Part shown: positions 2,509 to 63,288 of the stretch, piece by piece | Position numbering within the stretch: the first letter of the stretch is position 1 | How the letters are laid out: each line of letters starts with the position of its first letter | Origin: Colwellia demingiae | GTDB taxonomy: Bacteria; Pseudomonadota; Gammaproteobacteria; Enterobacterales; Alteromonadaceae | Assembly (NCBI RefSeq): GCF_007954275.1 | Contig: NZ_VOLT01000015.1 | Location: forward strand, 1 to 64,000 | DNA length: 64,000 nucleotides | Reading direction: 5' to 3' | Translations under genes and position numbers: made by a program | Notes under the pieces: model-generated | Told to the model about the DNA's origin: nothing | Seen by the model: only the letters and a program-made list of their open reading frames with translations | Databases searched by the model: none

Positions 2509-2521
2509 CTTTGGTTTATAG

Positions 2522-40298: not shown

Positions 40299-41189
40299 TT
40301 ATTTTGAATCATCAGAAAACTCTGTTGTTAAATAGGATAGAAACTCTTGGCTCACTTTAGAAAGACATTTGTTTTCTAGATACAAGGCTTTGACAGGAAA
40401 TGTTAATGGTGGATTAAAAGATGCAATAGCCGTATTATCTGATAAATTTCCTTCAGCGGTAAAACGATCTACCACGCAAACTCCAACGCCTTGAGCAACG
40501 AGTCTGGCGGCAATAAAATAGGTTTGTACTTTTATTAACGCTTCTAGGCTGATGTTGTCTTTCATCATTCTAGTCCATAATAAATCTGCCAACGGGCCAC
40601 TGTCACCAATATCGATATATTCAAACTCTTTTAGTTGGTTTAAGGTCAACTCTTTAGGGCAGTCTGGGAAACTTAATTTTGGATAAACAATGACTAACTC
40701 TGACTGAGCTAACTCAATTGAGGTTACGCCTGGCATGATATTTGGTGCAAATAATATCGCTAGATCACATTTATGTTCTAACAAGGTTTGCATTACAGCA
40801 TCGTTATGCACGGTTTGTACATTGAAGTTCACCTGATGATGTTTATGATGGTATTTTGCGATTGCACTAGGAATAACGTCAAAGCCTAATGCAGGGCTAC
40901 CAGCAATATTTATTTGGCCGTACTCTGATTTCTTTATGTTCTCTGCGGTATTTTTTATCGAACGCATCTGTTGGTATATTTTGTCTACTTCATCAAAGAG
41001 CATTTCCGCTTCGTCGGTTGGAGTCAAACGGCCTTTAACCCGTTCAAATAAGTCAAAACCGAGTTGCATTTCAGCATGAGATAGCACTTTACTAACAGAG
41101 GGCTGTGAAACGTGTAATATTTTTGCCGCATTGGTAATTGAGCCAGTAGTGTAAATGGCATGAAAAATTTCAATATGTCTTAAGCGCAT
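40299..41189 (-). CDS. LysR-family regulator, candidate controller of the glutamate locus
   Basis: A 296-residue LysR protein with its helix-turn-helix at residues 3-62 (GSITNAAKILHVSQPSVSKVLSHAE) and an effector domain (about 90-290). The style is that of the NocR/OccR group that responds to opines and amino acids. Just ahead of its start lies an inverted repeat TTATTTCCTAA...TTAGGGGATAA (41192-41218), a possible autoregulatory site. The palindromes at 43106, 46007, 51497 and 60771 fit a LysR T-N11-A site (TAACC...GGTTA). This gene is the nearest candidate, but binding is inference. Confidence 0.88.
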   Translation of the reverse strand: MRLRHIEIFHAIYTTGSITNAAKILHVSQPSVSKVLSHAEMQLGFDLFERVKGRLTPTDEAEMLFDEVDKIYQQMRSIKNTAENIKKSEYGQINIAGSPALGFDVIPSAIAKYHHKHHQVNFNVQTVHNDAVMQTLLEHKCDLAILFAPNIMPGVTSIELAQSELVIVYPKLSFPDCPKELTLNQLKEFEYIDIGDSGPLADLLWTRMMKDNISLEALIKVQTYFIAARLVAQGVGVCVVDRFTAEGNLSDNTAIASFNPPLTFPVKALYLENKCLSKVSQEFLSYLTTEFSDDSK

Positions 41190-41191
41190 TT

Positions 41192-41218
41192 TTATTTCCT
41201 AAGTTAGTTAGGGGATAA
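41192..41218. promoter_or_regulatory. Inverted repeat ahead of lysR 40299
   Basis: TTATTTCCTAA (41192-41202) and TTAGGGGATAA (41208-41218) are inverted around GTTAG, with two mismatches in the arms. They sit immediately upstream of the start codon and may be an autoregulatory operator. Confidence 0.45.
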
Positions 41219-41259
41219 TTTATTATGAGGCTTAGGTAAAAAATTAACTAAGCACTTCT

Positions 41260-42981
41260 TTAGGCAAACAGGTAAACGGTTAGTGTCCATAAGCAAGCGG
41301 CAAATGTTGCGGCAAACGTTGCAGGAACTAATTGTGATTTAACATGATCCATTAAGTCACAACCAGTAGTCATAGCACTTAGTATAGTTGTATCCGAAAT
41401 GGGCGAGCATTGATCACCAAATACACTGCCGTTAAGTACCGTCGCAAAACAAACCATCATATAAATTTCTGGATTTTCCAGTCCTTGAGACTGACAAACA
41501 GCCCACGCTAATGGCATGGCTAACGGAAATGCTATGGCATAAGTTCCCCAACTTGTGCCGGTAGAAAAGGCAATAACCATAGTGATTAACTGTAATATAA
41601 ACGGTAAGATCCAAAAGGGTAATTGCTCACCAAGTTGTGAGACCAAATATAAACCACCACCAATTTCTTTACTGATGCTACCTATAATAACGGCTAACAT
41701 TAATATCACCGAAGCAAGTACTACACCTTTTAAGCCATTGCCAAAGCCATCAATAAGATTTGTTAATGACATACCTTTTGCTAATGCGATGCCCGCAGAC
41801 AACAATAAGGCAGTACCAAAAGCCCAATTGATCTTAGGTGATCCTAAAAATATAAAAGTGAACACTGCAATAGCGATTAAGGTGACTAAGGGTAAAATAA
41901 ACTCTAAAACATGGGGTTTATATCCAGATGGTACATCACAGCGTTGTAACTCTTTAGCACTTAATGGTCTTGCACCTTCAGCGTCTAGTTGGCCAGATGA
42001 TAAAGCTCGTTGATGGGCAGCACGAATCCGTTTACCTGAGAAGGTGGTAATATTTAAACTTAATAACAAAGTACCTAGTACGGCAAAAATGGCATAAAAA
42101 CTAAAAGGGATACTACTAAAAAAGAAGTTTAATCTATCCGTTTCTGTTGCTAAGAAGGATACGCCGGGAACAAATATTAACGCTTGAACATAAGCTGGCC
42201 ACGCATTAAAGGCAATAATAGTTGCAATAGGGGAGGCGGTAGAATCGACAATGTAGCTCATCTCTTCATGGCTTACATTGGCTTTGTCCGCTAAAGGTCT
42301 AACGGTAGTACCTACTAATACGGTGCTCATAGTGCCACCTTGGAAAAATAAAATACCAAGTAACCAAGAAATTACTTTAGCTGAGCGCGGACCTCTAACG
42401 TAATGTTGTGTCATATAGTTAGCAAAGGCTTGTGCAGCACCTGTTTTAGACCAAATGCCTAATAAGCCACCCAACAACCATAAATAGAGTAATAGTAACG
42501 CGGCTGTGCCTTCTTTAGCTAAGTTGGGAATGATAACAGCATCAGTTAAATCATATTGACCCAACATTAATGAGCCGACCACTATACCGCTAAAGAGTGA
42601 GGTAAGCGGCTCTCGAGTTAATAAACATAAAGCAATCGTGATAAAAGCAGGCAGTAGCGACCAAAAACCAAAATGAAAAGCGGGCCTAAGTAGCGTTATT
42701 TTATGGGCTGAATCTTTAACCCATTGTTGTTCTAATAAGGGATCTTCGGTGAGTCTATTTAAGTTTTCTTGCCTAAGTGGTGATTGTTGATAAGGAACAA
42801 TCGTTGCAATAAGAACTTCTTTACCTTTATATATATAGGCGTGATTACCTGAGTCTGTTTGGTAAGTATCATAAACATAAGATTGCTCCAGCCAGGTTTT
42901 ATTAACCGAATTACCGACAAATATTGCAGCAATTAAGCCTAATATAGCAATGACTAATGCCAGGGTATTATTGCTACTCAT
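41260..42981 (-). CDS. NhaC-family Na+/H+ antiporter-like transporter
   Basis: A 573-residue transporter with about 12-13 hydrophobic helices. The NhaC superfamily motif [25 protein letters not shown] is at about residues 510-535. A large soluble loop (about residues 32-100) is unusual in the N-terminal part. Family members exchange Na+ (or Na+-linked organic anions) for H+; recent relatives also import amino acids or lysine-like substrates, so the true cargo is uncertain. Located between the LysR regulator and GltS; the palindrome at 43106-43122 lies 125 bases upstream of its start. Confidence 0.9.
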
Positions 42982-43105
42982 TTCTGAAACCCTCGCAGAT
43001 AAGGATTTTATAGTGTTTAATCATTCTTTTTCCCTTTGGAAGCTAATCCATAAAATAAAATTTTGATGGAAAAACAACACGAACTTTATTATTTTAGCTC
43101 TAAGT

Positions 43106-43122
43106 TATAACCTAAGGTTATA
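43106..43122. promoter_or_regulatory. Palindrome TATAACCTAAGGTTATA, candidate operator
   Basis: A perfect 17-base palindrome (8-bp arms around a central A) 125 bases upstream of the NhaC-type gene. The ATAACC-N3-GGTTAT pattern recurs at 46007, 51497 and (weaker) 60771. Confidence 0.7.
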
Positions 43123-43269
43123 GGATAGACTTAAGTAGATAAAGGAAGTAATGATTTTATTTTAAAATTGCACCAACATCTTGTAGATAACTGGTTTATA
43201 AACAATCTTCGTTGTTTTATAAACCATATCGTTCATCTAAATGGCATATTTACTAGTAGTTATTATTAA

Positions 43270-44493
43270 CTATGGGCTGACAAAAGGAAGACTCAAGTAG
43301 AGTTGAATAACCAGAGCATTGGTAATATCTATAAAGAATGCGCCAACTAAAGGGACGACTAAGAAAGCCTGTGGTGAGGGACCATGTCTTGCGACAAGAG
43401 ATTCCATATTGGCTACTGCAGTTGGAGTAGCGCCTAAACCAAAACCACAATGACCACCAGCAATAATGGCAGCATTATAATTTTTCCCCATTATTCTAAA
43501 GGTAATAAAATACGCAAACATCATTAGCATGACAGTTTGAATCAAAATGATCACCACCATAGGACCAGCTAAGCTTGCTAATTGCCATACCTTTAATGAC
43601 ATTAAGGCTAAGGCTAAGAAAATAGAAAGTGCCATCGTTCCCCATAAATCTATGCAAGCTCTGCTGATAGTGTACCGTTTAGATACTTCACATAAGTTGG
43701 TGGCCATCACGCCAAATAACAAAGGCATTAAAAAAGCGGGTAGGACAACATCAGCTTCTTTTAAGCTAAGGTAAACGACATGACCAACCGTCATACACAA
43801 TAAGATGACAAATAAGGTTTCCATCATTTTTTTAGGCGTCACTAAATCATGATCTTCAGGATTGAATGTTACTATGTCATCGAGCTCTTCATGATATTCA
43901 TCAGCTTTAAGATTATAACGAGTAATAAGTCTTTTACTCACCGGACCACCAACCAAACCGCCTAAAACCAAGCCCATTGTTGCAGCAGCCATAGCCAATT
44001 CAAAGATGTTAGCGGGCATATTATACTCAGTAATGAATAAATCAGCGTAAGTTGCGCCATTACCGTGGCCACCTGATAAAGTGACGGAACCGCCAATTAA
44101 ACCCATTAATGGATTCATTCCAGTCCCTATTGCGATTGAAACACCGATAGCATTTTGTACGAGTAAGTACACGGTTGCCACACCTAGAAATAAAACAACT
44201 TTAGGGCCACCTTTTAGTAACAGTGAATAACTAGCACCTAAACCTACGGTGGTAAAAAATACTGTCATGAGTGGATTTTTAAAACTCATATCAAAATTAA
44301 AGTGAATGTCAAAAATTGAGTGTGCGATTGCAGCCAATATTGAAAAAATAATGCCGCCAACAACAGGCTCTGGAATGTTGTTATTTCGTAAGATTGAAAC
44401 TTTGCTATTACAATAATACCCTGAAAAAAGAATGATGAGTGCTACCACGAGCGTTTCAAGAATACTGACATTTATTTCCATAGCTAAGCTCAC
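43270..44493 (-). CDS. gltS: Sodium/glutamate symporter (GltS family)
   Basis: A 407-residue protein of the GltS family with about ten hydrophobic helices. The N-terminal NIPEPVVGG motif and the pore motif GGHGNGATYADLF are conserved, as is the second GGHCGFGLGATPTAVANM. GltS imports L- or D-glutamate (and analogues) with Na+ at the inner membrane. It lies downstream of the PLP enzyme gene on the same strand, with a 116-base gap. Confidence 0.93.
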   Translation of the reverse strand: MSLAMEINVSILETLVVALIILFSGYYCNSKVSILRNNNIPEPVVGGIIFSILAAIAHSIFDIHFNFDMSFKNPLMTVFFTTVGLGASYSLLLKGGPKVVLFLGVATVYLLVQNAIGVSIAIGTGMNPLMGLIGGSVTLSGGHGNGATYADLFITEYNMPANIFELAMAAATMGLVLGGLVGGPVSKRLITRYNLKADEYHEELDDIVTFNPEDHDLVTPKKMMETLFVILLCMTVGHVVYLSLKEADVVLPAFLMPLLFGVMATNLCEVSKRYTISRACIDLWGTMALSIFLALALMSLKVWQLASLAGPMVVIILIQTVMLMMFAYFITFRIMGKNYNAAIIAGGHCGFGLGATPTAVANMESLVARHGPSPQAFLVVPLVGAFFIDITNALVIQLYLSLPFVSP

Positions 44494-44609: not shown

Positions 44610-45887
44610 TTACATTTTGTTTAGAACATCCTCAAGAGATTCGCCTTTGCGGATACATTTGATTGTTAGATCATCATCGTTACCTGTTACGGTATAGATC
44701 GCCACTCTAGGTAGGCTGTTATAATCAAAATGATTGGTAAAGTAATAGCCACCAGTATCGTGCACCATCACATAATCGTTGCTTTCTAGTTTTGGTAAGG
44801 CTTGATTACTACAAATAAGATCACCAGCAAAACAACAGGGACCTGCCACATCGGTTGTTACTACTTCTGATGTTCGCGCGGTTTTTTCTTCACCATCTGT
44901 TGTATAGCCAGTCACTCTTATAGGCCATGATTTAGGTAAAAAAGCAGTGCGGGTTATAATTTGTGCACCAGCATGAGTCGTTGCAATATGGCGTCCGCCA
45001 GAGTTTTTAGTGTATTCAACGCGAGTGATAATAACGCCATTTTTAGCAACAATAGCACGACCAAATTCAGTTTTTACTTGATACTTATCGGTAAATAATA
45101 AGGGGACTTCGGCTTTTAAAATATCAGCATAATCTTTAAAACTTGGCTTAATGATCTCTGAACTAAAATTAACAGGTAAGCCGCCGCCAATATCTAAACG
45201 CGTTATTTGTTGAACGCCGACCAGTGAATTGATTTCCTCTGCAAGTTCGGTAATTATTTTAATCCCATTTGCCATTAAAGATAATTCACAGCCATGAGAG
45301 CCAGAGTGCGTATGAATGCTATTTAACCATGGACGCTTTTTATAAATGTTGATGAGTTCATTACGATTGTCACCATCTACTAAGGCGTAACCAAATTTAG
45401 AGGTTGCTGTCGCTGTGCTCGTTGAACCTATTTTTCCACCACCAATTTGAGGGTTTACACGAAAACCTATCACGGATTTACTTTCAGGAAATTCAAGCAT
45501 TAATGCATCAATACGCTCAAGTTCCTGCAAGTTATCTATGTTTAGTGCTATGCCACTCTTTATACAAGTTCTTAAGTCCTGAATTGTTTTTGCTGGCGAA
45601 TCAAAAATAATATTTTCGGTTGAAAATCCGGCGGTAAGGGCTATTAATAGTTCTCCAGGACTAGCAACTTCGGCTCCCATGCCATATTCACGCAAAGGCT
45701 CTAACACTTTAACTAATGCATTAGCCTTGACCGCAAAGGTATGAAAAAAGTTGGCAGGAAAAGCTGCATAGGCGTCATTAACTGTTTTTCTCAAACCATC
45801 TAAATCCATTACGCCAATAGCAGTTAAATTGTGATCAATAACTTGATTGTTAATAGCCGTTTTAATTATGTTTTGTTTTCTGTTCAT
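44610..45887 (-). CDS. Fold-III PLP enzyme (Orn/DAP decarboxylase family)
   Basis: A 425-residue fold-type III PLP protein, related to diaminopimelate and ornithine decarboxylases. The PLP lysine lies in HTFAVKANALVKVL, GGGLP is a phosphate-binding motif, and AGPCCFAGDLI holds the cysteine expected at the active site. Glycines and HSGSHGCEL are in place. The substrate cannot be told; D-amino acids, ornithine or diaminopimelate relatives are possible. I put the start at 45887 (MNRKQNIIK) because the extra 28 codons to 45971 begin with an unsupported TTG. A palindrome lies 120 bases upstream. Not lysA by context. Confidence 0.82.
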   Translation of the reverse strand: MNRKQNIIKTAINNQVIDHNLTAIGVMDLDGLRKTVNDAYAAFPANFFHTFAVKANALVKVLEPLREYGMGAEVASPGELLIALTAGFSTENIIFDSPAKTIQDLRTCIKSGIALNIDNLQELERIDALMLEFPESKSVIGFRVNPQIGGGKIGSTSTATATSKFGYALVDGDNRNELINIYKKRPWLNSIHTHSGSHGCELSLMANGIKIITELAEEINSLVGVQQITRLDIGGGLPVNFSSEIIKPSFKDYADILKAEVPLLFTDKYQVKTEFGRAIVAKNGVIITRVEYTKNSGGRHIATTHAGAQIITRTAFLPKSWPIRVTGYTTDGEEKTARTSEVVTTDVAGPCCFAGDLICSNQALPKLESNDYVMVHDTGGYYFTNHFDYNSLPRVAIYTVTGNDDDLTIKCIRKGESLEDVLNKM

Positions 45888-46006
45888 ATTGGTATCTTTT
45901 AAATTAAGGAAACATGCAACTGTTGTGGTAACAGGTGATTCTTTGTCGATACCTTTAAGATAATGTAGCAAGGTGTAAATGGATAATAGTTAATCTTTGC
46001 TCGGTA

Positions 46007-46021
46007 ATAACTTTGGGTTAT
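46007..46021. promoter_or_regulatory. Near-palindrome ATAACTTTGGGTTAT, candidate operator
   Basis: Differs by one arm base from the ATAACC-N3-GGTTAT pattern. It lies 120 bases upstream of the PLP-enzyme start, the same distance as the other copies from their genes. Confidence 0.5.
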
Positions 46022-46153
46022 GTGCTTAAGTAGTATGTGATTAAGTTCCATAAGCTGCTATTAGCGAATAAAATTACTGCTACAACGTTTGGTTATACCC
46101 TCGACAAAGAAATGAATTTGCCTGTAAAAGCGGCAATAGCTACGCTTTTACTT

Positions 46154-46509: not shown

Positions 46510-49500
46510 GTGACTGTCACTACTGATTTAGAATTATGTCGTTTTATAAATGAAAGCTACCAGGAAGCAGACGTTATTGCTTTTGAAAGATTCTCTCAGC
46601 AAATGTTTAACAGCGCGCTCAGTGCTGATTTAAAAACGCTTTCAACGTTACAGCGTTATCAAATAGCCTTGTTATTATGGCAATCTTTTTGCTGTCGTAG
46701 TACAAATGAAAATAAAGTTGTTATCGAAAATAGAACACAACAAGATGCGCTAGCTGATGGAGCAATCATATCAATTATTACTGATGATAAAGCTTTTATT
46801 GTTGATTCAATCTCTGCGTTAATGATGGCACATGGGTATAAAATTAATATGTTTTTGCACCCAGTCGTCAATCGAAATCAAATTTTAGAAAGCAAAGAAC
46901 AAACGGATAATTTTTTTCAAGATGAGTCAATTTTATATATAGAGCTTGCTAATCAACTAGGGCCAATAGTGATTGGAGAGCTGGTTGAAACAATCCAGAA
47001 ATTGTTGGCTGATATCGCTAGAGTGACTCAAGATTGGCCTTTAATGATGGCCAAAAGTGAAGAAATAACGCATGAGTCGTCGAGTTTCGATGGTATTAAT
47101 GCCAAAAGGTTTTTATCCTGGCTTTGTCAGGAACACTTTGTTTTTATTGGTTATAATTTTATTGGTGCAAATAATATCGGTAACGCGATACTAGAAAACA
47201 ACTGTTTAGGTGTATTCAATGATGATGTTAAAGCAAGTAATCCCGCGTTAACGCTTACTAGTGCGGAATTTAAACAATTTATTGCCACGCAAAGCACACT
47301 GAAAGTAAGTAAGTCATTAGTAAAATCAACTATTCATCGGCATGACTATCTTGATTTGGTCAGTGTTAAAGAGTTCTCAAAAGATAGAAAGCTAATTGCT
47401 ATTCATCAGTTTTCAGGTTTGTTTACTCAAGTTGCTAATAACCTCCACCCGAATAAGATTCCTTTTTTGAATGCGAAGTTAGCACAAGTCCTACAACAGC
47501 TTAACCTGAAATTGGATAGTCATGATTATCGTAATTTTATCCATATTCTTGCGGTTTTACCCAAAAGGGAATTATATGAAAGTAGCGTTGAACAACTACT
47601 TGTTTTAGCGAAGAGCATACATAGTCTTAACGTGAGAAGTAACTCAGGTGTTTTTATCAGAGAAAATGATTTTGATGAACAAATTTCCGTGCTGGTATTT
47701 GTTTCTAAAGATGCATTTTGTACGGATTTACGCGATGAAATTGAAGGTGAGTTATCAAGGGCTTATCAAGGCGAAATATTATCACGTAATTCGATGCTCA
47801 ATGATAATTACCTAGCGCAATGGCATTTTATTGTTAAAAAAGGCGAATGCCTTAATCAAGAAGTCGATATTAGCGCGCTGATAGCAAGTATCGAGACTAA
47901 AACGCAAAGTTGGAATGAAAATTTAATCACGCTGGTTTCGCAATTATGTCAGGGCCAACAAGTAAGTTTATTACTTAAGAAATATAATAATGCTTTTTCA
48001 AAAAGCTATCGAGAGCACTTTTCTCCAAAACAAGCCATCGGAGCGATAAATAACATCGAGTGTTTACATGCTAATAATACTCATCAGTTTCAAATTTATC
48101 GTTCAGCACAAAGTCAAAGTGAGCTTACCTTAAATATATATACCGTAGAGAAAACCATTGCGTTAAGTGATTCTATCCCCATTCTAGAGCAGTTTGGTTT
48201 CAGACCTGTGGATGAATTTAGCTTCAAAGTCAGTTGTTCAAATAGCGATGCTAGGAGCAAAGTTTATAGTTATACCCTTGAGTACTCTAATGAAGATGTA
48301 GATATTGATGCTATAAAAATCAATCTTGAACACGCATTAGCAGAGGTTTGGGTGGGTAAAATTGAAAGTGATGGTTACAACAAGTTATTACTTGGTGCCA
48401 ATCTCAATATCAGACAAATTGTTGTTATCCGTGCATACGGTAAATATTTACGTCAATTAGGTCTTGGTTACTCTGAAGAGTACTTCCAGCAAGCTTTGAT
48501 TAGTTACCCTAGTATCGTTCATGGCTTAGTCAACTTATTCGAAGCACGTTTTGCACTAAGTGATCAAGGTATTGAACAACGAAAAGCAGTAACTGAGCTC
48601 ATCAAAGCGGATCTACTGCAAAGCTTAACTACCGTCTCAAAAATAGATCATGACAGGATTTTGCGTAATTTTATTGCTGCTATCTCGGCAACAGTAAGAA
48701 CTAACTTTTATCAAAAATCGTCTACGGGTGAGGCAAAAACTTATTGCTCCTTTAAAATACGCAGCGGCGAAATAGATGATGCACCACAACCGAGACCTTA
48801 TGTAGAAACCTTTGTTTATTCTCCTCAAGTTGAAGGCGTTCATTTAAGGTTTGCTCCCGTTTCTCGGGGTGGTTTACGATGGTCCGACAGGCAAGAAGAC
48901 TTTAGAACTGAAGTATTAGGATTAGTTAAAGCGCAACAAGTTAAAAATGTTGTTATCGTGCCACAAGGTGCTAAAGGCGGCTTTGTACCTAAGCAACTAC
49001 CCGACAACGGCTCGCGTGAAAGTGTTACTAACGAAGCGATTAGTTGTTATAAGGTCTTTATCTCTGCTTTATTAGACATCACTGATAATAATACTGCTAA
49101 CGGAATAGTTAAGCCTCAAAATGTTGTTTGTTTTGACGATGATGATAGTTACCTCGTTGTAGCTGCGGATAAAGGTACGGCTACCTTTTCTGATATTGCT
49201 AACAAAATAGCTAATGATTATGGCTTTTGGCTGGGTGATGCGTTTGCCTCGGGAGGTAGTGTTGGCTACGACCATAAAAAGATGGGTATCACTGCTAAAG
49301 GTGCTTGGGTATCAGTACAACGGCATTTTAGTGAGATGGATATTGATGTCCAACAAGATGAAATCAGTGTGATTGGTATTGGTGATATGTCCGGAGATGT
49401 CTTTGGCAATGGCATGTTATCTTCCAAAACGATAAAACTGGTGGCTGCTTTTGACCATCGCGATATATTTATCGATCCTAATCCTGATAGTGCCTTGAGT

Positions 49501-51496: not shown

Positions 51497-51515
51497 CTAT
51501 AACCCTAGGTTATAG
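51497..51515. promoter_or_regulatory. Palindrome CTATAACC-CTA-GGTTATAG, candidate operator
   Basis: Perfect 8-bp arms around CTA, about 121-133 bases upstream of the TonB receptor start. It repeats the pattern at 43106. Confidence 0.7.
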
Positions 51516-51647
51516 ATAAGCAATAAAGGGTCAATTGTTAAAGCTGTAATTTAAGTTCATGGTTAAGGTGAATGAAACGTAACTAAATGATCAGGTAGCT
51601 AATAACCTGACAATTATAAAACAAGCGAAATTACAATGGTGGATGTC

Positions 51648-54600: not shown

Positions 54601-54683
54601 CTGATACTACCTTTGGTTATGACGGTTCATTACATTCAAGCCGTGGAAGATACTTCTATACCAGTGCTAATTTCAGTTTTTAA
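51648..54683 (+). CDS. TonB-dependent outer-membrane receptor (oligomer/peptide type)
   Basis: A 1011-residue TonB receptor. It has a signal peptide (cleavage near FA-AEK), a TonB-box-like EEIERISIVGS, a plug (about residues 50-190, with LRSIGEGNTLVLLNGRRMV and VEVLRDGAGALYGSDAVAGVVNY) and a barrel ending ASFSF-like (SANFSF). The style is that of large SusC-free receptors for peptides or glycans rather than siderophores. ATG 51648 has GGTGG ahead; 51636 is an alternative. It heads the receptor-M14-deacylase set and has the palindrome upstream, so it should import the polymer or oligomer that the next two enzymes process. Confidence 0.93.
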   Translation: MKDRSMLKSKLSHLSLCVLTALTSQVVFAAEKAEVKEEEIERISIVGSNIKGSTMTSVLPVTELDAEDIAATGALDGDELLRSIPQIGAVGFTGTRGGNTGTNAARGDVGSVNLRSIGEGNTLVLLNGRRMVNHPITQTNFGVPVTSVNSNTLPISGLARVEVLRDGAGALYGSDAVAGVVNYVTKEDFEGGNFKVRYGAEQGTDRNDFTLSGNKGFEFNNSQTFFMISANYAKKTGLQASENGFSSNQDLRSRAPEEFAGDTDFDNRSTLEPHADLHYIGLPSKIDDYIVRPVSYINNAGEQQSAGSCGGGALASGGGVMGDVCLDAAGSHDRALRPNRNEERTLVPDIDRLNLFTNLSHEFNNGVEFYNESTYYRSKTKRQWEQSAILSNGTFDVPAHSYYNPFGPVNFADGRVNPNRIAGLDPAVVPVEGLAYNLRIRPTDVGPRQVEVESTSYRFLNGFRGTYDDWDWDTGVLYSEAKTDDNMSNRISSPLLLAQLSLDTADAYNPFTGVNPDNPASIIDSTPNPQSSINPFLTTAQRSAKTSLTMLDFKASNPFMFELPGGEAGLAFGLEYRKETLDEDNSSNFDGSEPFVEGNADPVNLSSLQGSSVRLDVSGEREVYSAYVELALPLLADLPAIHSLDVQLAARYEDFSDIGNITRPKMAVSWFPVEMLQFRGAVSKGFRAPNLIQLNSPGATLTTGVDDYAENSLDANGNVVVNSDTLADGGSGNGNYNLSTSGNKDLEAEESENISVGLTLQVMDNLTFTYDWWEIETTGTVGVLSDENISRLDLIARGEGSSNPDVIRGPIDADNPLGEIVQINRRYENLNTRTITGYDIAINYDLNTSVGDFGLSLNGARTLKFDQEAGGDASLIVDAGADPEVLGTAVGDIVGTNSIPEWQATASLKWKSNDALWGAGLFVKYVGEVDNTSVSKTVDSVTTFYTSKAQTRANTYVTRNDFMGYEGVSLSFGINNVFDQEPPLADTTFGYDGSLHSSRGRYFYTSANFSF

Positions 54684-54773
54684 TGATTAATTAGTAACAA
54701 ACCATATGGCTTGGCTAACTCAAAGTAGTCAGGCCATATTTTCTTTCTCATGCAAGTTTATAAAGAACCAATT

Positions 54774-56063
54774 ATGAAAAATGCACTTAACTCATCAACT
54801 TTGCTTTTACCGTTATTATTAGTAGTATTTTCCTGTTCAGCACCTCAAAAAAATATTGAAAACACAGCACCAATTCTCTCTGAAGACACGAAAACCGATA
54901 CTTCAGCAAACGTTTATCGTCCTGTAAAAGAACAATTTAAACCTGAAGTAAATAAAGTTTCAAACGTTAATAGTCAGTCCTGTAGCGACGGTAAGGTAAA
55001 GCTGACCAGTGATTTTGCTGCAGGGCGTATGGATGAATGTAAAAGAACAGGTGAAAATGAATATTCAATAATATTAGTGCCAGAAAACACGCCTATCAAC
55101 TCAAGCCCTTGGTATGCTTTTAAAATACAGGCTGAGCAAGTTACGGATATCACTATTACCATGAAGGTACGTGGCGATAAGCATCGTTACCCCCCTAAAA
55201 TTAGTCGTGATGGTAAGTCGTGGCAGCTACAAAGTTACCAACAAAAAGGTGAGCGCTTAATCATGAAAGTGAAAGCATCTCCCCAACCAGTGACTATTGC
55301 CGCACAAGAAATTATAAATAATCAATATTATGTTAATTGGGCAGAAGAACTTATCGAAGAGAGCGCTTTCACCCAAAGCATTTTAGGAGCATCTACTCAA
55401 GGTCGTCCTATCTACAAAATCGAAAGTCGAGGTGAAAATACTAATGAGTGGGTCGTTATTCTAGGACGACAACATCCACCAGAGGTTACCGGTGCTCTGG
55501 CTTTATTTCCGTTTGTCGAGACACTATTATCAAATAGCGAACTTAGTAAGTACTTTCTTAGAAAATATAATGTGCTAGTTATTCCTAATATAAATCCAGA
55601 TGGAGTACATGCTGGTAATTGGCGTAGTAATGCTAATGGTAAGGATTTAAATCGTGATTGGAATGATTTTTCACAGATCGAAACTCGATTAATAAATGAC
55701 TATTTGCAGGGCTTAGTAGCACAAGGGCAAAAAATTAAGTTTGCTGTTGATTTTCACTCCACTAAAAATGATATTTTTTATACTATGCCAGTAGACTATG
55801 GCGTTGAAAGCTCATACTTTGTTAGGCATTGGTTAGGTGAACTCGATAGACAAATGCCAAACTTCAATGTGGTTTTAAGACCAGGGAATAATCCAAACTT
55901 AGGTGTATCAAAGCAGTATTTTTCTGATCAGTTTGGCGTTCATGCCATTACCTATGAAATGGGTGATAATACCGATCGTACTAAAATAAAAAGTATTGCA
56001 TATAAATCAGCTAACATATTGATGATTAACATGTTATCAGATGTTGACCATGAAAAAGAATAG
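54774..56063 (+). CDS. M14-family carboxypeptidase lipoprotein, CCP-like
   Basis: A 429-residue lipoprotein (lipobox VVFSC, Cys21). A beta-sandwich domain with PWYAFKI and VTDITITMKV (about residues 110-170) precedes the M14 catalytic domain. This N-domain is typical of cytosolic carboxypeptidase (CCP/Nna1) relatives, known deglutamylases in eukaryotes. Zinc ligands are H234 and E237 (GRQHPPEVTG) and H328 (VDFHST); E395 (TYEMG) is the catalytic glutamate, with the NPDG...GKDLNRDW substrate motif intact. It probably removes C-terminal glutamates in the periplasm or at the cell surface. It lies 90 bases after the receptor. Confidence 0.85.
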   Translation: MKNALNSSTLLLPLLLVVFSCSAPQKNIENTAPILSEDTKTDTSANVYRPVKEQFKPEVNKVSNVNSQSCSDGKVKLTSDFAAGRMDECKRTGENEYSIILVPENTPINSSPWYAFKIQAEQVTDITITMKVRGDKHRYPPKISRDGKSWQLQSYQQKGERLIMKVKASPQPVTIAAQEIINNQYYVNWAEELIEESAFTQSILGASTQGRPIYKIESRGENTNEWVVILGRQHPPEVTGALALFPFVETLLSNSELSKYFLRKYNVLVIPNINPDGVHAGNWRSNANGKDLNRDWNDFSQIETRLINDYLQGLVAQGQKIKFAVDFHSTKNDIFYTMPVDYGVESSYFVRHWLGELDRQMPNFNVVLRPGNNPNLGVSKQYFSDQFGVHAITYEMGDNTDRTKIKSIAYKSANILMINMLSDVDHEKE

Positions 56064-56071
56064 GAAAGACT

Positions 56072-57643
56072 ATGAATGTCCTTAACAAAACAGCAATCAG
56101 CTTAGCGATCAGTATGGTATTTTTGAGTGCCTGCTCGACTGAAGAACAAAAGCTTACCGATAATAACGTTGATTTATTGATCACCAATGGCACTGTTTAC
56201 ACCGGAGAAAATGGTCAAGCTCAGCAACTCGATGTAGCGATTTGTCAGCAAATTATTTGTGGTTTATATCCCCGTGGTGAGCACAGTATTGAGGCCAAAA
56301 AGGTAATTGATGCTAAAGATAAAATTGTTAGCCCTGGTTTCATTGACCCACACACTCACTCTTTAGCAGAGCTGCTCAGTAAAGATAAAAACCATAACTT
56401 AAATTACTTAACTCAAGGTGTAACTACCGTGGTCAATGGTAATGATGGTGGTGGTCCAGTTGATATAACAGCGATGGCTAAAAAGCTAAAAACTAATGGT
56501 ATTGGCACTAACACTGCATTATTAGTGGGTCATGGCAGTTTAAGAGAACAAGTCATGGGCAGAGCAGAGCGTTTTGCCACGCCTGAAGAACTCAGTGAAA
56601 TGTCGGCGCTATTAACAACAGCGATGGAAGCCGGCGGCATTGGTTTATCAACGGGGTTATATTACGTGCCAGGTAGTTATGCTAATACAGATGAAGTCAT
56701 CACCTTAGCTAAAATTTCTAGTCACTTTGGCGGAATTTATGATACTCATTTACGTGATGAAAGTACCTTTAATATAGGCTTTAATGCCGCCTTAGACGAA
56801 GCCATTAATATTGCTGATAAAGCGGATATACATTTGCACTTAGCACATATAAAGGCATTAGGCGTTGATGTTTGGGGGCAAAGTAAGCAAGCAATTGACA
56901 CTATTACTCAAGCACAACAAAAGGGTACCTCAATATCTGCTGACCAATATCCTTGGTTAGCATCAGGTACTAAGCTACGTAGTGCGGTAATTCCTAAATG
57001 GGTAATGGCTGATTCAAAAAATGCTTTTCATCAACGTCTACATCAAACTGATTTATCAGCAAAATTAGCGGAAGAAATTACTGAGAATATTCGCCGAAGA
57101 GGTGGTCCAGATTCGCTTTATATTACTGAGTTTAATGATTCAAGCTTAGTAAGTTTGAATTTACTGCAGGTTTCAGAGTTGAAAGGTTTATCTGTCGTTG
57201 ATACCGCTATTTGGATGGTACTACAAGGTGATGTTAGAGTAGCGTCTTTTAATATGTCCCCTGAGGATGTTGAACGTTTTATGGTACAACCTTGGGTGGT
57301 CACTTCATCTGATGGCACAAACGGTCACCCCAGAAAATATGCAAGTTTCCCGCAGAAATATCAAAAATATGTAGTCGATAAAAAATTGCTCACTATTGCT
57401 GAGTTTATCAATCGAAGTTCTTCCCAAACAGCCAAACTCCTTGGTCTTAATGAACGAGGTCTTTTAAAAGTAGGCTATAAGGCCGACGTTATTGTTTTTG
57501 ATCAACAAGGTTTTGCGCCTAAGGCAAACTTTAGCCAGTGGAATAATTACTCGGTAGGAGTAGAGCAGGTTATTGTCAACGGCACACTGGTGATAGAAAA
57601 CGAAAAGTTTAGCGGAATCTTAGCCGGAAAGTTTATTCAATAA
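56072..57643 (+). CDS. N-acyl-D-amino-acid deacylase (D-aminoacylase) lipoprotein
   Basis: A 523-residue amidohydrolase with a lipobox (LSAC, Cys21). Metal-binding H94 and H96 lie in GFIDPHTHS; further motifs are STGLYYVPGSYANTDEVI, THLRDEST and the C-terminal KVGYKADVIVFD. These mark the D-aminoacylase group, which hydrolyses N-acyl-D-amino acids such as N-acyl-D-glutamate. AGGAAAG precedes the start and the gap to M14 is only 8 bases, so both are in one operon with the receptor. It would free D-amino acids in the periplasm for GltS-like uptake. Confidence 0.92.
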   Translation: MNVLNKTAISLAISMVFLSACSTEEQKLTDNNVDLLITNGTVYTGENGQAQQLDVAICQQIICGLYPRGEHSIEAKKVIDAKDKIVSPGFIDPHTHSLAELLSKDKNHNLNYLTQGVTTVVNGNDGGGPVDITAMAKKLKTNGIGTNTALLVGHGSLREQVMGRAERFATPEELSEMSALLTTAMEAGGIGLSTGLYYVPGSYANTDEVITLAKISSHFGGIYDTHLRDESTFNIGFNAALDEAINIADKADIHLHLAHIKALGVDVWGQSKQAIDTITQAQQKGTSISADQYPWLASGTKLRSAVIPKWVMADSKNAFHQRLHQTDLSAKLAEEITENIRRRGGPDSLYITEFNDSSLVSLNLLQVSELKGLSVVDTAIWMVLQGDVRVASFNMSPEDVERFMVQPWVVTSSDGTNGHPRKYASFPQKYQKYVVDKKLLTIAEFINRSSSQTAKLLGLNERGLLKVGYKADVIVFDQQGFAPKANFSQWNNYSVGVEQVIVNGTLVIENEKFSGILAGKFIQ

Positions 57644-57957: not shown

Positions 57958-58848
57958 TTAATCTAGTATCATAGTATTTTCAAAATACTCCTGCATGTAA
58001 ACTTTTAAGCATTTAGCTCTAGCACTTAACAGTTTACCACTGGGCCATACAGTATAAAGATCTCGATTTGGCCCCTGCCAAGCTTGTAATACTCGTACTA
58101 ATACTCTCGACTTTATTAAATGACTGACCTCGCTCATTGGTAAAAGTGAAATACCCAGATCGTCACATACCAGCTGAGTTACCATGTTTACATCGTTTAC
58201 TAAGGTCGAAAATCGAGGGCGAAGTTCCTGTTTTTTACTAGCCATTACATTCGACATGCTCCAACTTAGTAACGTATTTGTTCCTATTAAACGATGCAGT
58301 TCAAGTTCCTCAAGGCTTTTTGGCTCTCCTTGAATGGCTAAATATTCTGAAGTTGCAACTAAGACAGTTTGCAACGAGCCTAAACGTTTTTGATAAAGCA
58401 TTGAGGATTCTTGCGGACCAATCCGCAGTGCGATATCAGCCCCAGATGACAGCATGCTGTCCACACTATTACTTAGCATCAATTCAAGCTTAATATCAGG
58501 ATAAGTTTTAATAAAACCTGACCACATCGGCTGCAGCAAACCTGTAGAGATATTAGTCGGCGCTAATACTTTTAAAGAACCCGCTAATATATTTAATTCA
58601 CCACTAAGCTGTTGCCGAGTTTGTTCAAACTGCTCGACTAAACCTGCATAAGACTGATAGAAAGACTCTCCCTCCTGAGTTAGTCCAAATTGGCGCGCAG
58701 AACGGTGAATCAACTGGTGGCCAATAGACGTTTCTAAACGCTGTAAACGCCGTGTTACCGTAGCCGCAGGTAAGTCTAGCTTCTTAGCAGCTGACGCTAA
58801 TCCTTGTTTCTGTACTATGTGTACAAATAGAACTATATCATCGAACAT
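57958..58848 (-). CDS. LysR-family regulator, divergent from an ABM/DUF2798/RidA operon
   Basis: A LysR protein of 296 residues from ATG 58848 (MFDDIVLFVHIVQK); the frame runs to 58896 without support. Its helix-turn-helix is at about residues 3-60 (GLASAAKKLDLPAATVTRRLQRLE). The type matches DmlR/CrgA-like regulators, which often control a divergent small-enzyme operon. The 110-base gap to the ABM gene holds both promoters. Confidence 0.88.
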   Translation of the reverse strand: MFDDIVLFVHIVQKQGLASAAKKLDLPAATVTRRLQRLETSIGHQLIHRSARQFGLTQEGESFYQSYAGLVEQFEQTRQQLSGELNILAGSLKVLAPTNISTGLLQPMWSGFIKTYPDIKLELMLSNSVDSMLSSGADIALRIGPQESSMLYQKRLGSLQTVLVATSEYLAIQGEPKSLEELELHRLIGTNTLLSWSMSNVMASKKQELRPRFSTLVNDVNMVTQLVCDDLGISLLPMSEVSHLIKSRVLVRVLQAWQGPNRDLYTVWPSGKLLSARAKCLKVYMQEYFENTMILD

Positions 58849-58958
58849 GATTTCATATTTGGAATTAATGATTGATAAATACAGTATATATTTCATATTC
58901 GTAAGTGTATATCTTTAGATTCCCTCAAATATATAACAAAGACACAACAGAGATAACC

Positions 58959-59270
58959 ATGACAACACCTAAAGCCTTACCTCAGAAGAAACTATGGATC
59001 AGCGCTGGTCTAAAGGTTTCAGCCGATATCTCAGCAGAAAAAGCCAAAGAAGAACTGCAAACATTGCAACAACAAACAGTCAAAGAGAAAGGCTGTATTT
59101 TCTTTGAGGTATTACAGCATAACGAAGACCCTGATTTATTTATCCTTTGGGAAGAATGGATCAACGAAGACGCCTTAAAAGAACATTTCAACCAACCCCA
59201 TACGAAAGCTTATTTAGCCCAAGCATTGACAGAAGTTCGTTACATAGAAAAACTAGAGAAGTTTTCATGA
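58959..59270 (+). CDS. Antibiotic biosynthesis monooxygenase (ABM) family protein
   Basis: A 103-residue single-domain ABM/YgiN-like protein. The start at ATG 58959 (MTTPKALPQ) is preferred over the frame opening 54 bases earlier. The pattern GCIFFEVLQHNEDPDLFILWEEW and the HFNQPHTKAY end are typical. Relatives act on quinols or as heme-related oxygenases; function here unknown. The stop overlaps the next gene's start (ATGA), so they are coupled. Confidence 0.85.
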   Translation: MTTPKALPQKKLWISAGLKVSADISAEKAKEELQTLQQQTVKEKGCIFFEVLQHNEDPDLFILWEEWINEDALKEHFNQPHTKAYLAQALTEVRYIEKLEKFS

Positions 59271-59509
59271 TTCATCGTATTTTATTCTCACTAATAATGT
59301 CATTACAGCTGTCATTTCTAATGACAGCTTGGGTCACTTGGATAAATCTAGGCTGGTCTACTGAATTTTATCAGCAATGGCTCCATAGCTTTATTTTAGC
59401 TTGGCCCGCAGCCGCATTGATTTCATTATTCAGTGCACCAGAAATCCACAAACTTGCGACTGTCTTGAGTAATAGAGCTAAATCGAAAGCAGAGCTAAAA
59501 TTAAAATAA
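59267..59509 (+). CDS. DUF2798 small membrane protein
   Basis: An 80-residue protein with two hydrophobic helices (LIMSLQLSFLMTAWVTW and the FILAWPAAALISLFSAP region). The wording MIHRILFSLIMSLQLSFLMT.. and the PAAALISLFSAPEIHKLA end fit DUF2798. Function is unknown. The ATGA overlap with the ABM gene supports this start over the longer frame, which begins in the ABM gene. Confidence 0.8.
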   Translation: MIHRILFSLIMSLQLSFLMTAWVTWINLGWSTEFYQQWLHSFILAWPAAALISLFSAPEIHKLATVLSNRAKSKAELKLK

Positions 59510-59511
59510 TC

Positions 59512-59886
59512 ATGAGCATACAACGAAAAAACTACAATAAGTTGGGTGAAGTACTTGGCCCATATACCCAAAGTGTTATTCACAGCAATACCTTGTACAC
59601 ATCTGGACTCACGGCATTTGGTAGTTCAGCGCAAATGGCAGGAATAGAAGTACAAACACGGACTATTTTTTCTCAGCTAAATCATATCTGTCAGGCGCAC
59701 AATGTTACGATGAAAAATCTGATCAAAGTAACAATATTTGTCAGTGATTTTAGTGATATGGATTTGTTAAGATCAACTCTATTTGATTTATATGGACATG
59801 ACATTCCCGCGAGTTCTTTAATTAAAGTTGATGCTCTTTTTTCTAAAGATTTTAAAATAGAAATTGAAGCCATCATTGGCCTATAG
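59512..59886 (+). CDS. RidA-family (YjgF) protein with altered active site
   Basis: A 124-residue RidA/YjgF homologue of normal length, with GPYTQSVI near the start. The conserved Arg in PARTxV, needed for imine deamination in RidA, is replaced: the motif reads PASSLI, with S101 at that position. It is therefore more likely one of the Rid2-7 or YoaB-like groups. It starts two bases after DUF2798, giving an ABM-DUF2798-RidA operon facing the LysR. A role in clearing reactive imines made by amino-acid enzymes is possible but unproven. Confidence 0.85.
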   Translation: MSIQRKNYNKLGEVLGPYTQSVIHSNTLYTSGLTAFGSSAQMAGIEVQTRTIFSQLNHICQAHNVTMKNLIKVTIFVSDFSDMDLLRSTLFDLYGHDIPASSLIKVDALFSKDFKIEIEAIIGL

Positions 59887-60598: not shown

Positions 60599-60770
60599 TA
60601 TCATCACCTTTTAAAAACCGTTATTAATCACCTTGGATTACCATCATGTAATTATATTTTGAAAAAGGAAAAGACTTAAGTTTTGCTTAGCCATAAAGAG
60701 AGGTTATGACTTGATTATCCTGCAGCTAAAGCAACGCTTTCAGGCTATCTTATTAAGAGAGTCTCAAGCC

Positions 60771-60785
60771 ATACCCTTAGGTTAT
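60771..60785. promoter_or_regulatory. Near-palindrome ATACCCTTAGGTTAT, weaker copy of the locus operator
   Basis: Matches ATAACC-N3-GGTTAT with one arm mismatch (C for A). It lies between the divergent small-peptide gene and capA-like gene, 173 and 365 bases from their starts. Confidence 0.4.
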
Positions 60786-60847
60786 ACATCATCTATAGAT
60801 AGGAATGAATTTATTGTTTTTGTTTGTATATACTTGATTGATAACTT

Positions 60848-61110
60848 ATACCAATTCCAATAACTTTCTTTTCACTCAGCGAGAGTTAAAAGGCTTAGAG
60901 GCAAGGCATTGATTGTAGAGAATGGTTATTCCCTTCTCAAAATTAATAACGCAGCATATAAGCCTTTTAAACTCGCCTTTAGGAGCTTTCCAGCGATCCG
61001 ATAACTGCACATAATTTCTTTCATATAGAGTAACTATATGCAAAAAAATTCTATTTGTTCTCAAACCGCTGGTAAGCTCTGAGTGGGAATAAACTTAATG
61101 GACTTGGTAT
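60848..61110 (+). repeat. MITE-like dispersed element, copy A (263 bp)
   Basis: Bounded by ATACCAA (60848-60854) and TTGGTAT (61104-61110), in opposite orientation to the 264-bp copy at 46154. GCGAGAGTTAAAAGGCTTA (60879-60897) pairs with TAAGCCTTTTAAACTCGC (60959-60976). The same stem exists in copy B with altered, still pairing bases. A 62-codon frame inside (minus, from 61064) is not conserved in copy B and is not a gene. Confidence 0.8.
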
Positions 61111-61149
61111 TATTAATAGCCCTTTAGAGGCAACAAACTTGGAACAAAT

Positions 61150-63288
61150 ATGCGACAGTTTATAACTATAATAATTTTAATAACTGCTTTTGGTTTTCAG
61201 CTTAATGTTAATGCAAGTCAAATGGTCAACATTAAAGGCCGTTTGCTTGATGAATTTCAACTCCCTCTTAGTATGGTAAATATCACCTTAAACAATAAAT
61301 CAGTTACCAGCGATAAACAGGGACGCTTCGTTATACCTAGTGTCGCTAAAGATATTTATCAGCTCAGCTTTGTTAAAAAAGGCTACTTTAAAAGTATTCA
61401 AACGTTTAGTCATTATGAACTTTTTTCTCAGAATAAAGAAAAAGCTAATACTGCTATTGCAGATCTCACTTTAGTTACCAAAAAAGCCAAACGCGTAATG
61501 TTAGCCTTTGGTGGTGATGTCATGATGGATCGCCGTTATTATAAACCTTACTTTGGAGATTCTATTTTGATTCATCCAGAAACTAGGCTCAGTGATAGTA
61601 AGGCGATTGTCGAAAACATAAAACCTTATATGAGTATCGCTGATTACGCAGCGGTTAATTTAGAAACACAAATTGCCGATAAAACACCTGGAGATCGCGC
61701 GCCTAAATCTGTTACCTTTTATTCTAGACCTGAAATACTCGACGCTTTAGTGTGGGCGGGTGTGGATTACGTCAGTTTGGGTAATAATCATACTTATGAT
61801 TATTTAGAGCCAGGAATGGAGTCGACTTTAGCATTTTTACAGCAAAGTCCTCTGGGATTTTCCGGTGCAGGTATGAATGCAAAACAAGCGTTAAAAGCTC
61901 ATCGCGATACCATCAACAATACTGAATTCTCTATGCTAGGTTATGTCGGCTGGGAAGGGCGTTCAGAGCCTACGCAAACAGCTAACCACAAACACGGCGG
62001 CGCTGCTTATGGTTCAATGACTAATATCATTAACTCTGTTCAACAAGAAGTGAATCAAGATAGAGTCACTATAGTGCAATATCATGGTAGTCAAGAGTAC
62101 GCTAACAGCCCAACGGGTGTTACCGAACAACGATTAAAATCAGCCTTAGATAATGGCGCGGCACTGGCTATTGCCCATCATCCACATGTAACTCAAGGTC
62201 TAGAGCTGTATAACAACAAGTTAATTGCTTACTCAATGGGCAATTTTATCTTCGATCAAAATTTTAGCGCCACACAACATAGTTTTATTTTGTATGTTTG
62301 GTTAGATGAAGGGGAATTTCATCGCGCGGAGATAGTGCCTTTATACGTTAAAGGTTATAAACCAACGCCTGCTACAGGGTCTAATCGTTATACTGTGATG
62401 AAGCGTTTAACTGAACTTTCTAAGGTTAGAAATACCCTTATTACCCAATCAGGTGGTCACGGTGTAATTACCGCTAAAAGACCAACAGTGACCGTTAAAT
62501 CAGTTAGCAATACACAGGTTAAAGTCAAAGCCGATATCAACACATCCGTTAAACATGAGTTAACTTTTTCAGAAGGCAGCAAGATAGCGAGTTTGTATCA
62601 CCTACCATGGCATCAACAACTTAGTGAGGTATGGATAGAAGACGAAAAGGTAAAGTATCGTCTGGGTAAAAATTTAGTTAACGGCAGTAACTTTGAAAGT
62701 TTTTCAACGTTTAATAGCCCAGAACGTGGTTTGTTTTTTGATAGAAGTTTAATGAGTTTAAATAATTATGGTGTTAGTGGTAATACAAGTATTGCTTTAG
62801 CACTTAATAACCAACAGCCAACGTCCTTTGGCGTAAAAAGTTTTTGGCGTGTTTATTCTGCCAGTAGACAAGTTACCATTAAAGCCAGTTATCAGAGTAA
62901 AAAAGCCGTTAAATTACACTATTATTGGCAGGGAAGAAAAAAGAGACAAAAATTATTTGATGCCTTTGAAAATAGCCCTAAAAACTTAATTAAAACTGTT
63001 GAATTATCTGGTTCAGATACATGGCAAAACGTAGAAGTTGATTATAATTCCCCAAGAGTTGGTTATAAAAGTTATCGTGTATTGGTCGAGGCCGAATTGG
63101 TGGATGGCACCACAACCCAGTTAGATATTGACGACTTTGCTGTCATTGAATGGCATAGCGCTTTTACAGATAATCCAATACCACAGTTTTTTTCCCTTGA
63201 TAGCCGACAATCAGCTTACTTGGGTTTATCTAATGTAAGTAAAACGATTAAAACCAAGCCAAGTGCGGTTGTTGTTATCACCAAGTAA
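61150..63288 (+). CDS. CapA-like secreted protein (poly-gamma-glutamate family)
   Basis: A 712-residue exported protein. A signal peptide (about residues 1-22, end NVNAS) is followed by a carboxypeptidase-regulatory-like beta domain (about 27-95). The PGA_cap/CapA domain (about 115-400) has AFGGDVMMDRRYY near 119, NLETQI near 170, LGNNHTYDY near 209 and AHHPHVTQG near 343, a metallophosphoesterase-like metal site. The C-terminal 300 residues are beta-rich and may bind carbohydrate or polymer. CapA proteins take part in making or trimming poly-gamma-glutamate; other members have unknown roles. It ends before a strong terminator and stands alone on its transcript. Confidence 0.85.
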   Translation: MRQFITIIILITAFGFQLNVNASQMVNIKGRLLDEFQLPLSMVNITLNNKSVTSDKQGRFVIPSVAKDIYQLSFVKKGYFKSIQTFSHYELFSQNKEKANTAIADLTLVTKKAKRVMLAFGGDVMMDRRYYKPYFGDSILIHPETRLSDSKAIVENIKPYMSIADYAAVNLETQIADKTPGDRAPKSVTFYSRPEILDALVWAGVDYVSLGNNHTYDYLEPGMESTLAFLQQSPLGFSGAGMNAKQALKAHRDTINNTEFSMLGYVGWEGRSEPTQTANHKHGGAAYGSMTNIINSVQQEVNQDRVTIVQYHGSQEYANSPTGVTEQRLKSALDNGAALAIAHHPHVTQGLELYNNKLIAYSMGNFIFDQNFSATQHSFILYVWLDEGEFHRAEIVPLYVKGYKPTPATGSNRYTVMKRLTELSKVRNTLITQSGGHGVITAKRPTVTVKSVSNTQVKVKADINTSVKHELTFSEGSKIASLYHLPWHQQLSEVWIEDEKVKYRLGKNLVNGSNFESFSTFNSPERGLFFDRSLMSLNNYGVSGNTSIALALNNQQPTSFGVKSFWRVYSASRQVTIKASYQSKKAVKLHYYWQGRKKRQKLFDAFENSPKNLIKTVELSGSDTWQNVEVDYNSPRVGYKSYRVLVEAELVDGTTTQLDIDDFAVIEWHSAFTDNPIPQFFSLDSRQSAYLGLSNVSKTIKTKPSAVVVITK

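Follow-up and report, generated by a model that had tools for sequence, protein, structure and literature searches.

The window analysed here comprises positions 1 to 64,000 of contig NZ_VOLT01000015.1 from the Colwellia demingiae assembly GCF_007954275.1, and includes, between positions 40299 and 63288, a gene cluster that is interpreted, with a probability of roughly 0.6, as a locus under LysR1 control through which D-glutamate is scavenged from glutamyl conjugates, and in which an enzyme dependent on pyridoxal 5'-phosphate (PLP) would decarboxylate D-glutamate to gamma-aminobutyric acid (GABA). On the reverse strand lie lysR1 (40299-41189), encoding a LysR-type regulator with Pfam HTH_1 and LysR_substrate domains; nhaC (41260-42981), for an NhaC-family transporter (PF03553, 97.2 bits); gltS (43270-44493), for a sodium/glutamate symporter (TIGR00210, 440.9 bits against a cut-off of 310.75); and the gene for a LysA-like fold-III PLP enzyme with two Pfam domains (44610-45971), a predicted D-glutamate decarboxylase. 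The last of these is listed with a TTG start, and its true start is probably the ATG at 45887, the corresponding M29 being invariant in 10 aligned rows. On the forward strand follow gdh (46510-51255), encoding a large-type NAD-glutamate dehydrogenase (PF05088, 838.6 bits), of which the genome carries a second copy on contig C6; a TonB-dependent receptor of 'type B', identified by Pfam (51636-54683); a lipoprotein-like M14-family metallopeptidase (54750-56063; Pfam, 62.1 bits) with CCP-type relatives in the PDB; a D-aminoacylase-like amidohydrolase lipoprotein (56072-57643), assigned through its family profile and PDB relatives; and capA (61150-63288), for a CapA-like secreted protein (PGA_cap, 176.1 bits). 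Pfam and NCBIfam profile scans thus recovered, at the same interval, every gene family named in the initial annotation, and added the NhaC-family transporter between lysR1 and gltS that it had overlooked.

This combination of genes is conserved. A scan for the M14 peptidase, taking one genome per species, yielded 30 loci, in 28 of which the deacylase gene adjoins that for M14 (the exceptions being L043 and L054); among these 28 are, by record title, loci of Colwellia, Litorilituus, Thalassotalea, Psychrobium, Pseudoalteromonas, Shewanella, Alteromonas, Aliiglaciecola and Aliikangiella. The cluster that recurs across these genera of marine Gammaproteobacteria consists of lysR1, nhaC and/or gltS, the TonB receptor, the M14 lipoprotein and the D-aminoacylase-like lipoprotein, with capA a frequent further member. 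Counted from the maps, lysR1 is in view in 26 distinct loci, of which 13 carry gltS alone, nine nhaC alone, two both, namely the window and one near relative, and two neither. This alternation suggests that the NhaC-family protein can replace GltS as the importer of one common product, which would make it a probable glutamate importer. A small SBP_bac_3-type protein, recognised by a Pfam match of the L044 copy, is encoded 3' of the deacylase or M14 gene in 10 of the 30 loci (L026, L028, L034, L037 and L039-L044); no such gene appears in the map of the window.

The second feature common to these loci is a palindrome, ATAACC-N3-GGTTAT, found upstream of linked operons and corresponding to a T-N11-A dyad, the form that LysR sites usually take; the product of lysR1 is its predicted binder. 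Exact copies lie at 43107-43121, 133 bp upstream of nhaC, and at 51499-51513, 130 bp upstream of the TonB receptor gene. A copy with one mismatch (ATAACTTTGGGTTAT, 46007-46021) lies 127 bp before the ATG at which the PLP gene probably begins and 43 bp before the listed TTG. The initial annotation had placed the palindrome about 120-130 bp before three transcription units, which agrees with these distances except that the copy before the third unit, that of the PLP gene, is imperfect; it had also described a weaker copy before capA, which exists as a one-mismatch box at 60771-60785, albeit 372 bp upstream of the gene and so outside the 120-130 bp range. A weak box with two mismatches (46082-46096) lies 421 bp upstream of gdh, and in 10 relatives gdh is preceded by copies with two mismatches at approximately 90-165 bp. 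With up to two mismatches allowed, the window contains 13 matches, compared with 3.96 +/- 2.15 in shuffled sequences, none of 100 shuffles reaching 13. Across the whole 5.2 Mb genome there are three exact sites, two of them in the locus, and none in a reversed control; the third (C21:400423) falls inside an outer-membrane efflux-type gene, a type assigned by eye (L055), and was taken as a chance occurrence. One-mismatch sites number 36 genome-wide, as against 24 in the reversed control, so single weak sites elsewhere provide no evidence of regulation; 31 of these were fetched from outside the locus, of which 22 are in coding sequence and nine intergenic.

The strongest evidence for the box is its conservation in relatives. 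It was surveyed, at up to one mismatch and between 250 bp before and 90 bp past the called start, in 36 distinct sequences, several from close species, leaving out as duplicate, too short or not part of the cluster L027, L033, L034, L039, L043, L049, L054, L055, L130, L137 and the short search-derived loci. A box precedes the TonB receptor gene in 31 of 35 cases, nhaC in 12 of 12, the PLP gene in 14 of 17 and dgcN, discussed below, in seven of nine. It is found less often before gltS as first gene (6/13), gdh (6/13) and capA (8/18, to which the window's own capA box is too distant to contribute), and seldom before lysR1 (2/7) or the M14 gene (2/18), compared with a single instance among 94 other first open reading frames. 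Among the mapped loci, none of four SBP_bac_3-type genes and none of four gabD as first gene, one of the latter being the weaker relative in L125, has a box. These gene classes are not independent, as some upstream regions are common to divergent genes; 50 permuted half-sites gave class averages between 0 and 0.6%, although in small classes a single permutation could score as high as 25%. Exact boxes are likewise concentrated outside genes, 34 being found in 86.6 kb of intergenic sequence and two in 607 kb of called coding sequence. Together, a neighbourhood conserved across genera and one common LysR-type box support the earlier suggestion that these genes are co-regulated and serve a single use, and the comparison with related genomes that had been proposed as a check found the association to be conserved.

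The likely product released at the locus is indicated by the genes that accompany lysR1 in other species. A DgcN-DgcA pathway for D-glutamate was reportedly described by Yu et al. in ISME J in 2023. In seven of the 30 loci, members of the dgcN and dgcA families follow lysR1, with the box before dgcN; the L050 copies exceed the NCBIfam equivalog cut-offs, at 495 bits for DgcN (cut-off 480) and 409.5 for DgcA (cut-off 400). This route converts D-glutamate to L-glutamate (PMC12363236, PMC10845958). The position of DgcN and DgcA behind lysR1 and under the same box is the best evidence as to the freed product and points to D-glutamate, one of the compounds suggested by the initial annotation, or a close acidic D-amino acid; the presence of GltS is in keeping with this.

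At the locus in the window dgcN and dgcA are both absent; the genome as a whole has no DgcN match at E 1e-30, a search that did not extend to dgcA. Instead, the PLP gene appears to stand in for DgcN-DgcA, and the two are mutually exclusive at the locus. A family-wide set of 216 genomes contains eight with the PLP gene (E 1e-60) and 55 with DgcN (E 1e-30), with no overlap, which is weak evidence alone. A stronger count is conditioned on the deacylase: of 30 genomes with a deacylase of at least 57% identity, counted by hand, seven are PLP-linked, the gene being no more than some 12 kb away, 20 are DgcN-linked, none has both and three have neither nearby (hypergeometric probability 1.8e-5, blind to kinship). 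The last three (G328, G350 and G352) are all less than 90% complete, and G352 has DgcN on another contig; 18 of 48 matches, those below 57% identity, had been dropped beforehand, and of these G374, G436 and G454 also have DgcN nearby, while G006 has a PLP gene that is unlinked. Similarly, the 26 distinct lysR1 loci include 11 with the PLP gene, 11 with dgcN-dgcA and none with both. In 21 M14-bearing genomes drawn from the order, some of them shared with the other sets, the PLP gene occurs in four and DgcN in 11, both being found in one (G003). On a tree of 37 deacylase rows the state changes between PLP gene and DgcN at least five times, although the tree has long branches and seven open forks. 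A wider search at E 1e-70 found the PLP gene in two of 369 genomes of the class, one of them the window's.

The sequence of the PLP enzyme suggests what reaction it might catalyse. The hallmarks of a fold-III decarboxylase are all present: the PLP-binding Lys, the H-x-G-S and E-x-GR motifs, both Pfam domains and the Cys of the GPxC motif, which has a catalytic role in LysA. Its best PDB match is to diaminopimelate decarboxylase (8.5e-38). It was nonetheless rejected as LysA proper, scoring 227.4 bits against a lysA equivalog cut-off of 297.9, while a separate lysA in the genome scores 481.3 bits, and a residue that LysA uses to bind substrate is replaced. In the Thermotoga maritima diaminopimelate decarboxylase (TmDAPDC), binding of the distal carboxylate falls to Arg249 and Arg285, and that of the distal amine to Glu315 (PMC8277567). 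Mapped through an alignment with the genome's own LysA, taking the roles of TmDAPDC residues from that article, both Arg are kept in the PLP enzyme (in EFGR and, equivalent to R285, in TRTAF), whereas the equivalent of Glu315 is Phe (GPCCFAGD), as it is in all the gammaproteobacterial relatives aligned, down to the 50% identical homologue in L130, and in L204-L206 (the alignment was made without L151, which was in a wrong frame). Retention of the distal Arg together with loss of the amine-binding Glu would suit a D-amino acid whose far end bears a carboxylate but lacks an amine, D-glutamate being an example. The PLP enzyme is most likely a natural decarboxylase of D-glutamate to GABA, and so would supply the GABA shunt.

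GABA is the leading guess for the product because of the genes that keep company with the PLP gene. In L029-L031, gabD and gabT lie inside the locus, the L030 copies exceeding the succinate-semialdehyde dehydrogenase and GABA-transaminase cut-offs. GabT (E 1e-120) occurs in seven of eight genomes with the PLP gene, and in six of the seven in which that gene is linked to the deacylase, compared with one of 20 DgcN-linked genomes (Fisher's test 5e-5 for the seven of eight, blind to kinship), close species being counted separately. In G395, the PLP genome that lacks GabT, a class III aminotransferase adjoins the PLP gene (L128), as is also the case in L129; likewise in G111, from another family, the PLP gene is followed by a LysR gene and then by a class III aminotransferase that has 79% identity to the copy in L051 (L204, 6995-10999).

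The pathway suggested by these associations would begin with the TonB receptor bringing oligomers into the periplasm, where the M14 peptidase might trim them and the D-aminoacylase-like lipoprotein release D-glutamate or another acidic D-residue. This would be imported by GltS and/or the NhaC-family carrier. The DgcN and DgcA of many relatives would then convert D-glutamate to L-glutamate; in the window, the LysA-like PLP enzyme in their place would produce GABA, which GabT and GabD, encoded elsewhere in the genome, could convert to succinate, with the second NAD-glutamate dehydrogenase recycling the glutamate formed by GabT. The initial annotation had likewise proposed a co-regulated locus of single use, for glutamyl polymers or N-acyl/D-glutamate, a view that is largely retained here, but it had missed the exchange of nhaC and gltS and the significance of the PLP enzyme.

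A number of observations weigh against this scheme. In TmDAPDC, the E315F substitution gave no detectable activity on D-glutamate, only E315Q having a little (5.9 mU/mg; PMC8277567), so that further changes would be needed for the shorter substrate. The association with GabT amounts to two or three phylogenetically independent pairs, none opposite, and cannot reach significance; no box at up to one mismatch accompanies gabDT in L196-L203; L051 has a class III aminotransferase with no PLP gene in view, that family not having been searched in DgcN genomes; and the second glutamate dehydrogenase would fit L-glutamate as product equally. The exchange with DgcN is also imperfect: four of the 26 lysR1 loci have neither the PLP gene nor DgcN in view, in G003 the locus contains the PLP gene but a DgcN (53%) is encoded on a different contig, in G006, one of the eight PLP genomes, the PLP gene (50%) lies outside the locus, and in L044 the PLP gene is missing from its usual place even though gdh, the receptor, M14 and the deacylase are present. 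Finally, at 179.5 bits the deacylase falls below the cut-off of 340 of the nearest curated model, and this, together with the loss of a Cys metal ligand, means that specificity for N-acyl-D-glutamate cannot be read off its sequence.

The periplasmic enzymes leave some latitude as to the polymer, since peptidoglycan stem peptides and poly-gamma-glutamate both fit. Across the variants listed for an alignment of 37 rows, the M14 peptidase keeps its active-site motifs HPPE, NR, H and E; the role of CCP-like deglutamylase that the initial annotation gave it is a possible one. The metal-binding Cys of the deacylase motif GNCG is replaced by Asp (GNDG) in the window and the listed family variants (30 of 33 rows displayed), and such deacylases may have a different metal site. 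N-acyl-D-glutamate deacylase combines Cys/His/His metal ligands with a catalytic Asp (PMC12017989), and that metal site is not reproduced in the window's deacylase, which has Asp for Cys. An OngB-like GlcNAc1A deacetylase, a sequence relative of the deacylase, was also considered and set aside as the cluster context speaks for D-glutamate, the partner genes of such a system not having been searched for. The receptor is 95-96% identical to those of L025 and L026 and around 40% identical to most receptors beside M14 elsewhere.

That the substrate is poly-gamma-glutamate rather than peptidoglycan, with the CapA-like protein and the gamma-glutamyltransferase (GGT) of relatives acting on the polymer, is a tentative alternative that is compatible with scavenging of D-glutamate. 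Relatives of the type-B receptor adjoin GGT in L043, L049, L051 and L128, and GGT lies near distant homologues of the PLP enzyme in L130 and L209; these instances, along with the recurrence of capA in the cluster, often with a box, lean towards gamma-glutamyl compounds. The name of the PGA_cap domain carries no information on degradation, however, and the profile scans matched no gene of the window to a gamma-polyglutamate depolymerase family.

Other explanations concern the PLP enzyme itself. It could be racemase-like and convert D-glutamate to L-glutamate, in which case both variants of the locus would end in L-glutamate, to be oxidised by the second NAD-glutamate dehydrogenase. This is unlikely: the DgcN-DgcA pair that it replaces does yield L-glutamate (PMC10845958), and gdh adjoins the PLP gene in Colwellia-type loci, but gdh is present in none of the 11 mapped DgcN-DgcA loci, though L-glutamate is made there too. 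The co-occurrence of GabT with the PLP gene argues in the same direction, as does a protein of ODC/LysA decarboxylase type in which both Pfam domains and the Cys of GPxC (as GPCC) are maintained.

It is more doubtful still that the enzyme is a diaminopimelate decarboxylase acting on diaminopimelate from imported peptidoglycan peptides, the locus then serving whole stem peptides. A LysA-like fold is in keeping with such a role, and some M14 peptidases cut the bond between gamma-D-glutamate and diaminopimelate. Marine bacteria are able to use diaminopimelate via LysA (PMC9602339). Nevertheless, the genome has a lysA above the cut-off elsewhere, the exclusion with DgcN indicates D-glutamate, and the amine-binding Glu is Phe in the aligned relatives, a change that in TmDAPDC lowers activity on diaminopimelate from 675 to 36 mU/mg without abolishing it (PMC8277567). 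Least probable is that the genes are neighbours by descent only, with unrelated functions and a box that is a general site; the near-background number and largely coding location of one-mismatch sites in the genome would accord with this, but the box precedes the same genes in varied arrangements and genera, and the PLP gene and DgcN, like nhaC and gltS, have been exchanged repeatedly.

Homologues of the PLP enzyme are also found far from this cluster, in five records of actinobacterial plasmids (L207-L211) at 45-51% identity, two of them annotated as 'diaminopimelate decarboxylase'. Some of the open reading frame calls on these GC-rich plasmids are in error, and use was restricted to those supported by a profile match or a record annotation. 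At the Glu315 position, checked in two of the homologues, L210 has Tyr and L211 has Phe. On the Embleya plasmid (L207) the homologue is followed by a gene of the M55 D-aminopeptidase family (292.5 bits with Pfam, under the DppA equivalog cut-off), with a GABA-permease-like gene also downstream (572.5 bits, cut-off 678.1), and in L209 an APC permease gene accompanies the nearby GGT; no GABA or glutamate gene was found in L208, L210 or L211 among the genes scanned or annotated. A D-cysteine desulfhydrase annotation lies around 3 kb from the homologue in L211, and in L208, from Streptomyces sp. NBC_01237, an encapsulin gene adjoins a DyP-type peroxidase gene (2131-4067) approximately 5 kb away. 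The wider proposal, which we regard as evenly balanced, is that a natural D-glutamate decarboxylase forms an unassigned branch of the LysA family; that this direct route from D-glutamate to GABA has repeatedly traded places with DgcN-DgcA among marine bacteria and is also carried on actinobacterial plasmids, in two of the five next to genes of D-aminopeptidase and GABA-permease-like type or in the vicinity of GGT; and that the NhaC-family carrier is an alternative glutamate importer.

Between the deacylase gene and capA, the window carries genes for a second LysR protein (lysR2), an ABM-domain protein, a DUF2798 protein and RidA (57958-59886). Among the mapped loci this stretch recurs in one near relative only, a single genome represented by L033 and L124, and it looks like a local insertion. 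Just beyond the other end of the locus, at 39041-40193, are adjacent genes for a membrane protein resembling DsbB and a thioredoxin-fold protein resembling DsbA, both judged by eye.

Marine organic matter that is slow to degrade includes D-glutamate from cell walls. Because the locus links uptake across the outer membrane, release in the periplasm and import with an established D-glutamate pathway, the steps from polymer to D-glutamate become directly testable, as does the cargo of the NhaC-family carrier. The new point is the candidate natural D-glutamate decarboxylase; few decarboxylases act on a D-centre, and some annotations as 'diaminopimelate decarboxylase' may be wrong. PMC8277567 (2021) names only diaminopimelate decarboxylases as acting on a D-centre. 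PDB entries add the D-ornithine/D-lysine decarboxylase, and neither of these is for D-glutamate. In the open-licence literature, no report of a 'D-glutamate decarboxylase' was found.

Several characterised systems resemble parts of the locus. The catalytic motifs of the M14 lipoprotein-like protein are those of CCP-type carboxypeptidases (4a37, 3l2n). Its neighbour belongs to the same amidohydrolase family as the BbDam N-acyl-D-glutamate deacylase (3gip/3giq) and OngB (9kb1), but differs from them in the Cys-to-Asp change at the metal site. The fold-III D-ornithine/D-lysine decarboxylase (6n2h, 8d2y; NF052544) is, like the proposed role of the PLP enzyme, named for D-amino acids; its substrates are basic, however, and the PLP enzyme scores 92.6 bits against the NF052544 cut-off of 700. 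BtrK, the L-glutamyl-[BtrI acyl-carrier protein] decarboxylase (2j66, 7ru7), is also of fold III and has, by its PDB name, a glutamyl substrate, but this is the L-isomer on a carrier protein and BtrK is more distant from the PLP enzyme than is diaminopimelate decarboxylase. LysA shares with the PLP enzyme the fold family, the PLP Lys, the GPxC Cys and both distal-carboxylate Arg, and is set apart by its distal-amine Glu, by the lysA cut-off that the PLP enzyme falls under and by its separate presence in the genome. By contrast, the likeness to the DgcN-DgcA pathway is one of context: many relatives of the locus carry DgcN and DgcA under the same box, whereas the locus in the window is without both and has the fold-III PLP enzyme instead.

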